Below are positions 51,921-61,205 of a DNA stretch of 64,000 nucleotides, one piece after another (position 1 is the stretch's first letter; the number at the start of each line of letters is the position of its first letter). The notes beneath the pieces were generated by a model. That model did not search any database and was not told the origin of the DNA. It saw only the letters and a list, made by a program, of their open reading frames with translations. This DNA is from Natronococcus occultus SP4 (lineage in GTDB: Archaea > Halobacteriota > Halobacteria > Halobacteriales > Natrialbaceae), in assembly GCF_000328685.1 (NCBI RefSeq), contig NC_019974.1, forward strand, positions 3,587,001 through 3,651,000, given 5' to 3'. A program made the translations under genes and the position numbers.

Positions 51921-54900
51921 ATGAGTGAACGCGCCGACGAGGGAGCGTCCAGCACCGACGACGTGCGATCGAACCCGATCCGAACCCGGGACGACTGGGA
52001 GCAGTACCGCGAGCGGGCCCGCGAGGACCCCGGTTCGTTCCACGGGTCGATCGCCAAGCGAGAGATCCACTGGTACCACGACGACGAGGACGCGTGGCTG
52101 TCCTACGACGGGGAGTGGACCGGGTTCGACGCCGAGACGGGCGCTCGAACGAGCCGCGACTACCCTGAGGGCCACGAGCCCTGGGACGTCGCCTTCGACG
52201 ACTCCGAGGCGCCGCTGTACGAGTGGTTCGCGGGCGGGCTGACCAACGCCTGTTTCAACGAGGTGGATCGGCACGTCCTCGCGGGCCACGGCGACGAGAC
52301 CGCGTTTCACTTCGAGGGCGACCGCTGGGATCAGTCGAAAAACGACGGCCGCGGGGGACCGGTCGTCTCCGAGGACGTCTCGCGCCGGGAGCTGCTGGTT
52401 CGGGTCGCCGAGGCCGCCCAGGTGCTGCAGAACCTCGGCCTCGAGCGGGGCGATCGCATCGCCCTGAACATGCCAAACATCATGGAGCAGCTCTACTACA
52501 CCGAGGCCGCCAAGCGGCTTGGGATCGTCTACACGCCGGTGTTCGGCGGCTTTAGCGACAAGACCCTCTCCGATCGGATCGCCCGGCTCGGTGCCGACGT
52601 GCTGATCACCAGCGACGGCGGCTACCGCAACGCCGAGATCGTCCCCTACAAGGAGCGGTACGCCGACCCCGCGCTCGAGGACTACCTGCCCGTCGAGACC
52701 GTCCTCGAGATCGTCGACGAGACGCTCGCGGAGCTGGAGCTGGACGAGCGCCACGCCGAGACGATCCGCGAGCGGGTCGAGCGGGCGATCGAGGGCGAGG
52801 CCACCGTCGATCGGGGCCAGGCGATGCGGGGGGTCGGGAACGCCCTCGAGACGTTCGCCGACCGCTCGGGCGAGGAGCTCGCCGAGATCCGAACCGAGAT
52901 CGCCCGGGCGCTGGTCGACTCGGAGGACCGGCTCGAACGGGTGGTCGTCGTCGAGCACACGGGCCAGGAGATCCAGACCCACGACCGCGACGACTGGTCG
53001 GCCGACCTGATCGCCGACGCCCGGGAGGATATCCTGGCTCAGGCCCGCGACGCGGGGTTCGCCCTCGAGAGCTACGACGACCTGCTCGCGCTCGAGGACC
53101 GGGAGCTGGTCCGGGCGATCTGGGCCAGCTCGCGTCCCGTCCCGGTCGACGCGGAGTATCCCCTCTTCGTCATCTTTACGAGCGGGTCGACGGGGAAGCC
53201 GAAGGGCGTCGTCCACGTCCACGGCGGCTACACCGCCGGCATCGCGAACACGATGAAGGTTTCCTTCGACGTCGTCCCCGGCGAGGACACGATCTTCGTC
53301 ATCGCCGATCCGGGCTGGATCACGGGCCAGTCGTATCTCATCAGCGCCTCGCTGACGACCCGGACGACGAGCGTTTTACTCGAGGGTGCGCCCGTCTACC
53401 CCGACGCGGGCCGGTTCAGTTCGGTGATCGAGCGCTACGGCGCGACCGTCTTCAAGGCCGGCGTCACCTTCCTGAAGGGGATCATGGAGGACGACGAGAG
53501 CGTCGCGGACATGCGCGAGTGGGAGACCGACTCCCTGCGGGTCGCGACGTTCTGTGCCGAGCCCGTGAGCCCGGCCGTCCAGGAGTTCGGGATGGAGGAG
53601 ATCTGCGAGCGCTACATCAACTCCTACTGGGCGACCGAGCACGGCGGGATCGTCTGGACCCACTTCTTCGGCAACGAGGACTTCGAACTCCGGGCGGACG
53701 CCCACACCTACCCGCTGCCGTGGGTGTTCGGCAACGTCTGGGTCGAGGAGGAGGAACACCCTGACGGCACCAGCGAGTGGCGCGAGGCCGACCCCGAGGA
53801 GCGCGGCGAGATCATCGTCGAGGAGCCCTACCCGTACCTGATGCGGTACGTCTGGGGCGACCTCGAGGGGTGGGACGGCGCCGACTGGGCGGGCGAGTGG
53901 ACGGGCAACGCCGAACGTTTCGAGGACGTCTACTGGATCGAGAAGGATGGCGAGTACGCCTACCTCCAGGGCGACGTCGCCAAGCAGTACGACGACGACT
54001 CCTTCAGCCTCCACGGTCGCTCGGACGAGGTGATCAACGTCTCAGGTCACCGGATGGGCACCGAGGAGATCGAGGGCGCGATCTTACAGGACAAGCGGAT
54101 CAACCCCGACTCGCCGGTGGCAAACGCCGTCGTCGTCGGCGCCGACCACCACGAGAAGGGACTGACGCCCGTGGCCTTCGTCCAGACAAAACCCGACGAC
54201 CGACTCACCAACGAGGTCGAGGCCCGCCTCTCGGGGCTGGTCCGCGATGAGAAAGGCGTCACCGCGGTCCCGGAGACGTTCATCGAGGTCGAGGCGTTCC
54301 CCGAGACCCGTTCGGGGAAGTACATGCGCCGGATGCTGACCGCGATGCTCGACCGGGAGCCGATCGGCGACACGAGCACGCTGAAGAATCCCGGCGTCGT
54401 CGAGTCGATCCGCCCGAAGTGCGAGCGCTGGCGCCGCCGCCAGGAGCTGGCGGCCGAGCAGGAGCTCCTCGAGCAATACCGCAACGTCACGGTTCAGTAC
54501 AACGACGTTCGCGGCGCGGACGAACGGATCGCGACGGTCACGATCGACAGCCCGCCCGTCAACGCGCTCACCGAACGCGCCCTCGACGAGCTCAACACCG
54601 TCCTCGAACACCTCGATCGCCGCGAGGACGTCGGCGCGGTCGTGCTCACGGGCGCGGGCCCGTCGAACTTCGTCGCCGGCGCGGACGTCGAGCAGTTCTT
54701 AGAGGAGGTCCACGAGTACGAGGACGCCGTCGCCTTCCCGAACACGGCCCACGAGGCGTTCCGACGGATCGAGGAGCTTTCGGTCCCCGTGGTTGCCGCG
54801 GTCAACGGCACGGCGCTCGGCGGCGGGAACGAGCTCCAGCTCGCGGCCCACTACTCCGTCGCCGAGCAGGCGGCCGAGTTCGGCCAGCCGGAGCTCAACC

Positions 54901-57335
54901 TCAACCTCATCCCGGGGTACGGCGGCACCCAGCGGCTCCCTCGCGTTCTCGGCGAACGTCGGGGGACCGACGGCGTCCGCGACGCCGTGACGCTGATCAC
55001 GAACGGTCGAACCGTCGACGCCGAGGACGCCCTCGAGATGGGGCTGGTCGACGAGCTCGAGACCGAGCGGACGGCCCGCATCCGGGCCGCGGCGCTCGCC
55101 CGCGAACACGTCACCGACGCGGGCGACACCCTGGCGGACGCGCGCGAACGGCGCCTCGAGAACCGCTCGGCGTGGGCCGACCCCGGCGAGTTCCCCGCGG
55201 ACGTCCTCGAGGACCCGATCGTCGAGCGCAACCGTCGCCAGTGCGACCACGCCGGCACGGGGCGGGCGAAGGCGTTCGAGCGGGCCGTCGAGGCCATCCG
55301 TGTCGGGTTCGAGGAGGGGATCGACGCGGGCCTCGAGCGCGAGGCGACACACTTCGCCGAGGCCGTCGTCGACCCTGAAGGCGGGAAAGCGGGGATCGAG
55401 GCGTTCCTCGACCGGGCCAGCGAGCCGTTGCCGACCCGCGAGCGGTTCTCGCCCTCGCCCGAGGAGGAGCAGGCGCTGCTCGAGGACGGCCGACTGCTCC
55501 CGCCCGGCGAGCCGTTCTACCCGGGCGTCGACGAGATCCCCGACTACCAGTACGCCCAGCTGGTCCGCAAGGACGACGAGACCGGCGAAGCCGCCCACGG
55601 CGACCCCGAGGAGGCGGAGCTCGAGGAGGTCGTCCCCGTCGAGGAGCCCGGCCCGAACGAGGTGCTGGTCTACGTCCTCGCAAGCGAGGTCAACTTCAAC
55701 GACATCTGGGCGATCACGGGCGTTCCGGTCAGCCAGTTCGAGAACCACGACCAGGACTACCACGTCACCGGCAGCGGCGGGGTCGCGCTGGTGGTCGACG
55801 CCGGCGAGGCGGTCGTCCGCGAGGGACGGGTCTCGGTCGGCGATCTGGTGACGATCTACTCCGGCCAGAGCGACCTGCTCTCGCCGCGGATGGGGCTGGA
55901 CCCGATGTACGCCGACTTCTCGATCCAGGGGTACGAGGGGCCGAACGGCAGCCACCAGCAGTTCATGCTCGCCCAGGGGCCCCAGGTGCTGCCGATCCCC
56001 GAGGAGGCGACGATCGAACAGGCCGGGGCCTACGTCCTCGCGACGGGCACCGTCTGGCGGGCGCTGTTTACGACGCTTGACATCGAGCCCGAGACGTCGA
56101 TGTTCGTCGAGGGCGCCTCGACGGGCACGGGCTGGGAGACGACGAAGCTCGCGACGCGCAACGACGTCGACGTGACGGGGCTCTGCTCGAGCGAGGAACG
56201 CGCCGAACGGATCGAGCGCCTCGGCGCGGACGCCCTCGACCGCACCGCCGATCCCTACGACGACATCTGGGGGCGGATCCCCCGCGAGGAAAACGCGTGG
56301 GACGACTGGAAGGAGGCGGGACGAGAGTTCGTCGAGGCCTACGAGGCCAACCACGACGGCGAGCGGGCCGACTACGCCGTCAGCCACGCCGGGGAGCTCT
56401 CTTTCCCCCGGAGCTTCCAGCTGCTCGAGGAGGGCGGGAAGCTGACCTTCTACGGCGCCTCGACGGGTTACTACCTGACTTTCCTCGGCAAGCCCGGAGC
56501 CTCGACCCCCGACGCGATGTTCGAACGGGCCGACGTCCGGGCCGGCGACGGCGTCCTGATCTACTACGGGACCGACACCGGCCCCGACGGGGTCGTCGAC
56601 GAGACCGGGCTCAGGGCAATCGAGGACGCCCGCGAGGCCGGCACCCGAATCGCGGTCGTCGCCTCCACCGACGAGCAGGCGGAGTTCGTCGAGTCGCTTG
56701 GCTTCGGCGACGCCGTCGAGGGTACCGTCAGCATCGAGGGCCTGCAACGGCGCGAGGACGACTTTCGCTGGCCCGAGACGCTGCCGGACCTCCCCGACGC
56801 CCAGGCCGATCCAGAGGCGTTCAGGGGGGTCGTCCAGTCGATCACCGACGAGGTGTTCAAGCCCCTCGGGAAGGCGGTCGGCGAACTCCTCGGCACGCCG
56901 AAGAACCCGCGGGGGTACCCCGACGTGGTCTTCGAACGGGCCGACCACGACGCCCTCTATGTGAGCACGATGCTGGCGAAACCCCACACCGGACGGGTCG
57001 TCTACAGCGAGGACCTCGAGGACCGACGATACTCGATGTACGCCCCGCAGGTGTGGATGCGCCAGCGCGAGGTGTTGATGCCGACTGCGGAGATCCTCGG
57101 CACCCATCTGAGCAACGCCTACGAGGTCGAACAGTTGAACGAGGCCGTCGACGCCGGCGAGATCGACCTCACCGATCCGGAAGTCGTCGGCTGGGACGAG
57201 CTCCCCGAGGCCCACCAGGCAATGTGGGACAACGAACACGAGGCGAGCAGCTACGTCGCAGCACACGCGCTGCCTGAGGACGGACTGGACTCCAAGGAGG
57301 AGCTGTTCCTCGCCTGGGCCGATAGAGAGCGCTGA
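51921..57335 (+). CDS. Propionyl-CoA synthase-like trifunctional fusion (ACS-ECH-ECR)
   Basis: 1804 residues. Residues 1 to ~840: acyl-CoA synthetase with P-loop TSGSTGKPKG (420-429), YWATEHGG (from 569), GRSDEVINVSGHRMGTEEIE (from 699) and A10 Lys800. Residues ~860-1180: enoyl-CoA hydratase with FVAGADV (917-923) and both crotonase Glu positions (E971 in LGGGNELQ, E991 in GQPELNLN). Residues ~1230-1800: reductase of the crotonyl-CoA reductase/MDR type with VNFNDIWAITG (1257) and Rossmann EGASTGTG (1397). Order and length match Chloroflexus propionyl-CoA synthase (about 1820 aa): 3-hydroxypropionate + CoA + ATP + NADPH to propionyl-CoA. The N-terminus (RSNPIRTRDDWEQYRERARE, then HGSIAKREIHWY) also matches that enzyme, supporting ATG 51921. 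A helical insert (residues ~255-395) precedes the P-loop. No other bi-cycle gene is in the window. Confidence 0.93.
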   Translation: MSERADEGASSTDDVRSNPIRTRDDWEQYRERAREDPGSFHGSIAKREIHWYHDDEDAWLSYDGEWTGFDAETGARTSRDYPEGHEPWDVAFDDSEAPLYEWFAGGLTNACFNEVDRHVLAGHGDETAFHFEGDRWDQSKNDGRGGPVVSEDVSRRELLVRVAEAAQVLQNLGLERGDRIALNMPNIMEQLYYTEAAKRLGIVYTPVFGGFSDKTLSDRIARLGADVLITSDGGYRNAEIVPYKERYADPALEDYLPVETVLEIVDETLAELELDERHAETIRERVERAIEGEATVDRGQAMRGVGNALETFADRSGEELAEIRTEIARALVDSEDRLERVVVVEHTGQEIQTHDRDDWSADLIADAREDILAQARDAGFALESYDDLLALEDRELVRAIWASSRPVPVDAEYPLFVIFTSGSTGKPKGVVHVHGGYTAGIANTMKVSFDVVPGEDTIFVIADPGWITGQSYLISASLTTRTTSVLLEGAPVYPDAGRFSSVIERYGATVFKAGVTFLKGIMEDDESVADMREWETDSLRVATFCAEPVSPAVQEFGMEEICERYINSYWATEHGGIVWTHFFGNEDFELRADAHTYPLPWVFGNVWVEEEEHPDGTSEWREADPEERGEIIVEEPYPYLMRYVWGDLEGWDGADWAGEWTGNAERFEDVYWIEKDGEYAYLQGDVAKQYDDDSFSLHGRSDEVINVSGHRMGTEEIEGAILQDKRINPDSPVANAVVVGADHHEKGLTPVAFVQTKPDDRLTNEVEARLSGLVRDEKGVTAVPETFIEVEAFPETRSGKYMRRMLTAMLDREPIGDTSTLKNPGVVESIRPKCERWRRRQELAAEQELLEQYRNVTVQYNDVRGADERIATVTIDSPPVNALTERALDELNTVLEHLDRREDVGAVVLTGAGPSNFVAGADVEQFLEEVHEYEDAVAFPNTAHEAFRRIEELSVPVVAAVNGTALGGGNELQLAAHYSVAEQAAEFGQPELNLNLIPGYGGTQRLPRVLGERRGTDGVRDAVTLITNGRTVDAEDALEMGLVDELETERTARIRAAALAREHVTDAGDTLADARERRLENRSAWADPGEFPADVLEDPIVERNRRQCDHAGTGRAKAFERAVEAIRVGFEEGIDAGLEREATHFAEAVVDPEGGKAGIEAFLDRASEPLPTRERFSPSPEEEQALLEDGRLLPPGEPFYPGVDEIPDYQYAQLVRKDDETGEAAHGDPEEAELEEVVPVEEPGPNEVLVYVLASEVNFNDIWAITGVPVSQFENHDQDYHVTGSGGVALVVDAGEAVVREGRVSVGDLVTIYSGQSDLLSPRMGLDPMYADFSIQGYEGPNGSHQQFMLAQGPQVLPIPEEATIEQAGAYVLATGTVWRALFTTLDIEPETSMFVEGASTGTGWETTKLATRNDVDVTGLCSSEERAERIERLGADALDRTADPYDDIWGRIPREENAWDDWKEAGREFVEAYEANHDGERADYAVSHAGELSFPRSFQLLEEGGKLTFYGASTGYYLTFLGKPGASTPDAMFERADVRAGDGVLIYYGTDTGPDGVVDETGLRAIEDAREAGTRIAVVASTDEQAEFVESLGFGDAVEGTVSIEGLQRREDDFRWPETLPDLPDAQADPEAFRGVVQSITDEVFKPLGKAVGELLGTPKNPRGYPDVVFERADHDALYVSTMLAKPHTGRVVYSEDLEDRRYSMYAPQVWMRQREVLMPTAEILGTHLSNAYEVEQLNEAVDAGEIDLTDPEVVGWDELPEAHQAMWDNEHEASSYVAAHALPEDGLDSKEELFLAWADRER

Positions 57336-60018: not shown

Positions 60019-60134
60019 ATATACGTCGACGGTTGGGCGCTCCCGCAGATAGCGGCTGTGCTTGCGACGGACGGACGCAGTATGCAAGGCGGGAGGCAAA
60101 GGGCGTGGATCGCCCGAATGCGACCGACTACCGG

Positions 60135-61205
60135 ATGGACCCCCACGAGTTCTCGCGACAGCTCGCCGACCGCGCGGCGAGGACGCCGTCGAAGCTCGGC
60201 CAGGCACCGTCCCGAACGCTCCAGCTCGCCGCCGCCAAACCGGGCGAGACGCCCTACGAGATCGTCCACGAGGAACCGCCGGTTCGGCTCCGTCGGTACG
60301 AGCCCGAGCGTCCGGCGACCGACGCGACGCCGGTAGTGATCGCCTACGCGTTCATCAACGATCCCTCGATACTCGATTTCGCGCCGAAACGAAGCGTTGT
60401 CCGAACGCTCCTCGACCGAGGACTCCCCGTCTACGTCGTCGACTGGGGCGATCCGTCGCCGCTGGATCGTTCGCTCGGCCTCGACGACTACGTTCGGCGC
60501 TTTCTGGCCAACTGCGTCGACGCCGTTCGCGAGCGTCACGGGGCCGACGCGGTCCACCTGCTCGGCTACTCGACGTCGGTCCCGCTGGCGGTCGCCTACG
60601 CCGCGCTGTTTCCCGACCGCGTCCGAACGCTCGCGTTACAGGGGCCGCCGATCGACTTCCACGCCGGGGACGATATGGAGCTGTTTCGCTCCCTTGCCGC
60701 CGAACAGGACCACGAACGGATCGTAGCTACGTTCGACGCCGTTCCGACGCCGCTGCTGGAGCTCGGGCTCGCCTGTCGGAAACCCGTCGAGTACACCGTC
60801 ACGACGCCGCTTCGGCTCTGGGATCAGCTCGACGACGCGGCGTTCGTCGAGGAACAGGGACGGAAACTCGAGTGGATCACGGGCGGGCCGCACGTGCCCG
60901 GGCGGCTCTACCGCGAGTTCGTCGAGGGCCTGCTCCTCGAGAACCGGCTGATCGAGAACGAGCTCGAGCTCGGCGGGCGCCGTGTCGATCTCGCGTCGAT
61001 CGAGGCGCCGACGCTGCTCGTCCTCGGCACCGAGGACGCCTACGTCCCGCGAGCGGCGAGCGTCCCGCTGCTCGAGGCGATCGAGAGCGACGACACCGAC
61101 GTCCTCGAGCTCCCGACGGGCCACGTTGGGCTGTCGGTCTCGGCGGTCGCCCACGAACGTGGCTGGCCGCAGGTCGCGGACTGGTTCGTGGAACGGAACG
61201 CCTGA
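60135..61205 (+). CDS. PhaC-like alpha/beta hydrolase with Ser nucleophile
   Basis: 356 residues from ATG 60135. The fold and class III polyhydroxyalkanoate synthase features are clear: TPVVIAYAFINDPSILDFAP, LPVYVVDWGDPSPLDRSLGL, and the nucleophile elbow VHLLGYSTSVPLAVAYAALF. In PHA synthases that elbow is G-x-C-x-G; here it is G-Y-S-T-S. The His of the triad is in LPTGHVGLSVS and the Asp in VLGTEDAYVP. With Ser it is more likely a hydrolase or depolymerase-type acyltransferase than a PHA polymerase. No PhaE/PhaP gene nearby. Confidence 0.8.
   Translation: MDPHEFSRQLADRAARTPSKLGQAPSRTLQLAAAKPGETPYEIVHEEPPVRLRRYEPERPATDATPVVIAYAFINDPSILDFAPKRSVVRTLLDRGLPVYVVDWGDPSPLDRSLGLDDYVRRFLANCVDAVRERHGADAVHLLGYSTSVPLAVAYAALFPDRVRTLALQGPPIDFHAGDDMELFRSLAAEQDHERIVATFDAVPTPLLELGLACRKPVEYTVTTPLRLWDQLDDAAFVEEQGRKLEWITGGPHVPGRLYREFVEGLLLENRLIENELELGGRRVDLASIEAPTLLVLGTEDAYVPRAASVPLLEAIESDDTDVLELPTGHVGLSVSAVAHERGWPQVADWFVERNA

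Follow-up and report, generated by a model that had tools for sequence, protein, structure and literature searches.

The gene at positions 51921-57335 (+) of the window, by which we mean the whole 64,000-nucleotide stretch of Natronococcus occultus SP4 DNA analysed here, is, judged by its sequence, a genuine, full-length and residue-complete propionyl-CoA synthase (PCS) gene, hereafter pcs. PCS, a very large enzyme that unites three activities, is familiar from carbon fixation in bacteria, where it is taken as a marker of the 3-hydroxypropionate bi-cycle. The family is already known, and the haloarchaeal copy is an additional, well-supported member in an unusual host. The explanation that we favour, and consider quite probable, is that a genuine PCS was acquired and serves in scavenging, the propionyl-CoA that it forms from 3-hydroxypropionate going to succinyl-CoA or PHBV.

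The frame runs from an ATG at 51921 to a TGA at 57333-57335 and comprises 1804 codons with no internal stops. Since the longest open frames in base-shuffled copies of the same stretch were far shorter (mean 263 aa, maximum 601) and the whole frame stays open in relatives at 71-93% identity, pcs can be regarded as a real gene. It is chromosomal, on the largest of the three contigs of a 4.31-Mb genome, and solitary, same-strand genes being absent within 0.5 kb upstream and 1 kb downstream. Pfam matches follow along the protein in the order AMP-binding and AMP-binding_C, ECH_1 and MDR-type ADH_N/ADH_zinc_N. Three domains were delimited from these matches and from alignment with the solved Erythrobacter enzyme (6EQO), all on the + strand: an acyl-CoA (3-hydroxypropionyl-CoA) synthetase domain of residues 1-847 (51921..54461; AMP-binding, ACAS_N and AMP-binding_C, and a residue check), an enoyl-CoA hydratase (3-hydroxypropionyl-CoA dehydratase) domain of residues 848-1185 (54462..55475; ECH_1 at 867-1070, the hydratase tree and a residue check), and an acrylyl-CoA reductase domain of the MDR type, related to crotonyl-CoA reductase, of residues 1186-1804 (55476..57332; also placed by the reductase tree). 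The reductase domain of PCS has about 620 residues versus about 420 in crotonyl-CoA carboxylase/reductase, owing to an insert of about 180 residues common to PCS. The preliminary description had claimed a single intact PCS-like frame of three domains with its named motifs preserved, and both claims were borne out by the open frame, the Pfam order and the collinearity with 6EQO: the A10 lysine K800 (RSGKYMRR; codon 54318-54320, +), the crotonase glutamates E971 (54831, +) and E991 (54891, +) and the Rossmann motif GASTGTG at residue 1398 are all in place, and the three catalytic residues (K800, E971, E991) are invariant in the alignment with the solved enzyme.

Identity as PCS rests on the frame, the 6EQO match and the full-length tree. 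When all PDB chains were searched with phmmer, 6EQO was by far the best match (2066 bits; residues 5-1800 aligned with 6-1840), with 54% identity end to end; its sequence is 100% identical to the PCS of Erythrobacter NAP1 (locus L095), the ligase domain of which converts 3-hydroxypropionate to 3-hydroxypropionyl-CoA (PMC11599936). The two proteins are alike in domains, domain order, length (about 1850 residues versus 1804 in the window protein), linkers and catalytic residues; they differ in composition, an acidic, halophilic make-up (20% D+E, 9% K+R) being the feature of the window protein. Domain order and length, end-to-end homology, catalytic residues and the placement of each domain in its tree are thus all those of a PCS, and we infer that the window enzyme is active in high salt and acts on 3-hydroxypropionate. 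No PCS model was among the best 25 NCBIfam matches, and parts of the protein match models below their cut-offs, which fits the name 'AMP-binding protein' given in public records to the plasmid PCS genes of Natronococcus CG52, Natrinema zhouii and Natribaculum luteum. It might be supposed that three unrelated haloarchaeal domains were fused independently and merely resemble PCS, since the genome also encodes ordinary single-domain homologues of each. However, the 54-60% identity with bacterial PCS is collinear and includes the linkers and the N-terminus, the trees put the ligase and hydratase domains within PCS and at a great distance from single-domain proteins of the host, and they separate the reductase domain widely from known crotonyl-CoA reductases. 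The collinearity and the domain trees rule out such a fusion, to which we accord practically no probability; in the phylogenies run for each domain, the domains group with PCS and not with unrelated single-domain families.

A scan of 84,980 species found PCS in Chloroflexota, Pseudomonadota, Gemmatimonadota, Myxococcota, Bacillota and haloarchaea, the haloarchaeal holders being Natronococcus, Natribaculum, Natrinema zhouii, Natronomonas CBA1123 and a Natrialbaceae MAG. The full fusion is present in 4 of 194 genomes of the haloarchaeal class and in five of the nine Natronococcus genomes. It lies on the largest contig in genome G029 and on megaplasmids in Natribaculum, Natrinema zhouii and Natronococcus CG52. 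The full-length tree has one haloarchaeal clade (100), with Paenibacillaceae as sister (100) and then Chloroflexota (80), and the clade is kept in the domain trees (ligase 100/100, hydratase 98/94, reductase 96/91). The Chloroflexus PCS of the 3-hydroxypropionate bi-cycle belongs to the same enzyme family, at 57% identity, and the N-terminal block (NPIR..DW, HG.IA...IHWY) that the preliminary description had thought shared with it is indeed common to both in most positions. Chloroflexus, with which the description had compared the enzyme, is not its nearest kin: the closest bacterial sequences are those of Aneurinibacillus/Paenibacillaceae (Bacillota), at 58-60%. From the collinearity between about residue 16 and 1804 and from the haloarchaeal clade in the full-length and domain trees, we conclude that the PCS fusion arose once. 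Of the proposed common origin by horizontal transfer, the part that concerns one fusion event is upheld by collinearity and four trees; the direction is not, because the rooted trees conflict. In the rooted ligase tree Woeseiaceae and Myxococcota lie outside and the haloarchaea are nested among bacteria (99/93), whereas in the rooted reductase tree the root falls weakly (75/61) beside haloarchaeal PCS and the haloarchaea are not so nested; the outgroup branches are very long. The crotonyl-CoA reductase outgroup was drawn from PDB alignments, and none was found when sought in PCS-bearing bacteria. Transfer from bacteria to haloarchaea would be the simpler reading, the haloarchaeal pcs genes descending from one shared acquisition of a ready-made fusion and later having moved between chromosome and megaplasmids.

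Bifunctional malonyl-CoA reductase (MCR) is the canonical producer of 3-hydroxypropionate and the bacterial partner of PCS. In 33 bacterial loci pcs adjoins an MCR-type frame of roughly 1,200 residues, an assignment mostly made from an N-terminal motif, with seven sequences aligned and two SDR stretches seen in both of the two that were scanned. In Erythrobacter NAP1 the MCR gene directly follows pcs; the window pcs has no such pairing. A profile built from the seven-sequence alignment recovered the positive controls Erythrobacter and Chloroflexus with 2092 and 1701 bits, respectively. Bifunctional MCR was absent from all haloarchaeal PCS genomes searched, where the best match reached about 108 bits, and throughout the haloarchaeal and Bacillota PCS genomes the profile scored at most 158 bits. 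As the matches were to single SDR domains only, the canonical 3-hydroxypropionate producer is missing from the haloarchaeal PCS genomes. The window genome thus differs from that of Chloroflexus, which has a bifunctional MCR, and resembles those of Aneurinibacillus/Paenibacillaceae, which have none either beside pcs or elsewhere, although the latter are bacteria in which pcs has another gene neighbourhood.

The missing MCR rules out an autotrophic 3-hydroxypropionate bi-cycle in the window genome. Since the bacterial partner enzyme that makes the substrate is absent, PCS probably consumes 3-hydroxypropionate here instead of serving autotrophic CO2 fixation. The non-autotrophic role suggested in the preliminary description is likely, and fits the genome-wide absence of MCR with Erythrobacter and Chloroflexus as controls. 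The accompanying statement that no other bi-cycle genes are present holds for the window but not for the genome, which carries acyl-CoA carboxylase beta and methylmalonyl-CoA mutase elsewhere; these two bi-cycle markers are common in haloarchaea and not diagnostic. A survey using K14469 presented the 3HP cycle as a characteristic trait of archaea from thermophilic and halophilic lineages (PMC12806544). In our literature search, which covered mostly open-access papers, no paper was found that describes a haloarchaeal PCS as an enzyme.

In the scavenging role that we favour for the organism, 3-hydroxypropionate would come from uptake or catabolism and, on a single PCS chain, would be joined to CoA using ATP, dehydrated to acrylyl-CoA and reduced with NADPH to propionyl-CoA. 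Acrylate, DMSP and uracil, named in the preliminary description, would be candidate catabolic sources. Acrylyl-CoA is toxic, and would presumably be kept inside PCS and not released. Propionyl-CoA could then pass to succinyl-CoA via carboxylase and methylmalonyl-CoA mutase, for which the genome has an acyl-CoA carboxylase beta gene (70% identical to the cluster gene discussed below) and two mutase copies, or alternatively supply 3-hydroxyvalerate units for PHA. In favour of scavenging we count the IclR regulators found near pcs in several other haloarchaea, as such regulators are typical of catabolic genes; against it we count that carboxylase and mutase are ordinary in haloarchaea. No gene for making or importing 3-hydroxypropionate was identified in the window genome. 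An SNF-family sodium-dependent transporter (PF00209; 46862..48289, +) recurs in the neighbourhood of pcs at four Natronococcus loci despite differences in the intervening genes, its copies beside pcs in L043, L044 and L039 being 80-90% identical, and a functional link of this putative partner to pcs is possible.

The 3-hydroxypropionate could instead be made de novo from acetyl-CoA and CO2 by unrelated reductases, with PCS completing the route to propionyl-CoA, mainly for PHBV. There is a precedent in Haloferax mediterranei, for which, according to two reviews, a 3-hydroxypropionate pathway to propionyl-CoA has been proposed (PMC7137286, PMC6631277), likewise a haloarchaeal route to PHBV through this intermediate. 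Unlike in the window host, the PCS fusion was not found in Haloferax by the 84,980-species scan, a search that was not exhaustive, so that the Haloferax pathway appears to run without it. PhaC scores over the cut-off in all seven PCS genomes checked, the true PhaC of the window genome lying at C1:1336500-1337522; since it does so in 101 of the 194 genomes of the class as well, its presence lends the PHBV role weak support. A link to PHBV through a neighbouring gene was also considered and is weakened: the PhaC-like alpha/beta hydrolase at 60123-61202 (+) scores 259 bits against a class III PHA synthase cut-off of 365, its lipase box GYSTS, inspected by eye, has Ser where PhaC has Cys, and no such gene was found beside pcs in N. 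jeotgali.

Suggestive evidence for de novo supply comes from a conserved pcs cluster in Natribaculum and in a second genus, on the largest contig of G029 (loci L040:2043-19348 and L125/L126). Around pcs it holds genes for a thiolase, carboxylase beta, methylmalonyl-CoA mutase, Fe-ADH, GNAT and IclR proteins, a hydroxyacid dehydrogenase resembling 3-hydroxyisobutyrate dehydrogenase and tartronate-semialdehyde reductase, and a SauS-like CoA-acylating aldehyde dehydrogenase (584-592 bits, cut-off 600). The SauS-like gene occurs in 4 of the 194 class genomes, two of which are the PCS holders G029 and G136. The substrate of SauS, sulfoacetyl-CoA, is the sulfonate analogue of malonyl-CoA, and by this chemical reasoning the SauS-like enzyme could be a replacement malonyl-CoA reductase. 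We tentatively raise the possibility, itself doubtful, that the cluster encodes a complete conversion of acetyl-CoA and two CO2 to succinyl-CoA, with the part of malonyl-CoA reductase taken over by unrelated enzymes such as the SauS-like and hydroxyacid dehydrogenases. If true, the first half of the 3-hydroxypropionate cycle would exist in a distinct archaeal version, of which the window Natronococcus would possess no more than the PCS step and the widely shared downstream reactions. Profile searches found no SauS-like gene in the window genome, which excludes that enzyme as its malonyl-CoA reductase and leaves the window itself unexplained by the SauS hypothesis. As the hydroxyacid dehydrogenase of the cluster and MCR were likewise not found there, de novo supply seems unlikely for the window host. 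Beside pcs on the Natrinema zhouii plasmid (L038:17311-24860) lie genes for a 2-hydroxyacyl-CoA lyase-like TPP enzyme, a PaaK-like CoA ligase, a mutase large subunit, a B12-binding subunit and MeaB, in what looks like a 2-hydroxyisobutyryl-CoA mutase cluster.

Relatives with one or two of the domains were also found in haloarchaea. One is a 956-residue hydratase-reductase without the ligase domain (G021 contig 101, L122:1484-4351, -), which shares 51% identity with the C-terminal half of PCS; the others are stand-alone PCS-type reductases of about 620-630 residues on a plasmid of Haladaptatus sp. DYSN1 (L041:7950-9845) and in three f8 genomes (L127, L128 and L129). Their mutual identity is 66-74%, rising to 94% between the G125 and G070 members, and their identity with PCS is about 44-55%; in the two-domain tree they form one side together with haloarchaeal PCS (100/100). 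They may be PCS fragments or remnants of PCS assembly. The neighbours of the Haladaptatus reductase encode a BCCT transporter, an ADP-forming CoA ligase, two hydratases and a Rieske protein resembling glycine betaine monooxygenase, and in the vicinity of the G125/G070 reductases there are a halo-type malate synthase and a 3-(methylthio)propionyl-CoA-ligase-like protein. One could also imagine that the window PCS accepts acrylate or a similar acid, activated by its ligase domain, and serves mainly in detoxification, converting acrylyl-CoA to propionyl-CoA, the chemistry of its final step; the CoA ligases, hydratases and BCCT transporter adjoining stand-alone reductases in Haladaptatus would be in keeping with this. 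But all three domains are conserved in the haloarchaeal clade, the dehydratase would be superfluous in a detoxifier, and no gene that would form acrylate was recognised around pcs, so that this function appears very improbable. The haloarchaeal PCS would be a salt-adapted version of the 200-kDa compartmentalised enzyme, and its one- and two-domain relatives make the history of the fusion, whether by assembly or breakdown, testable.
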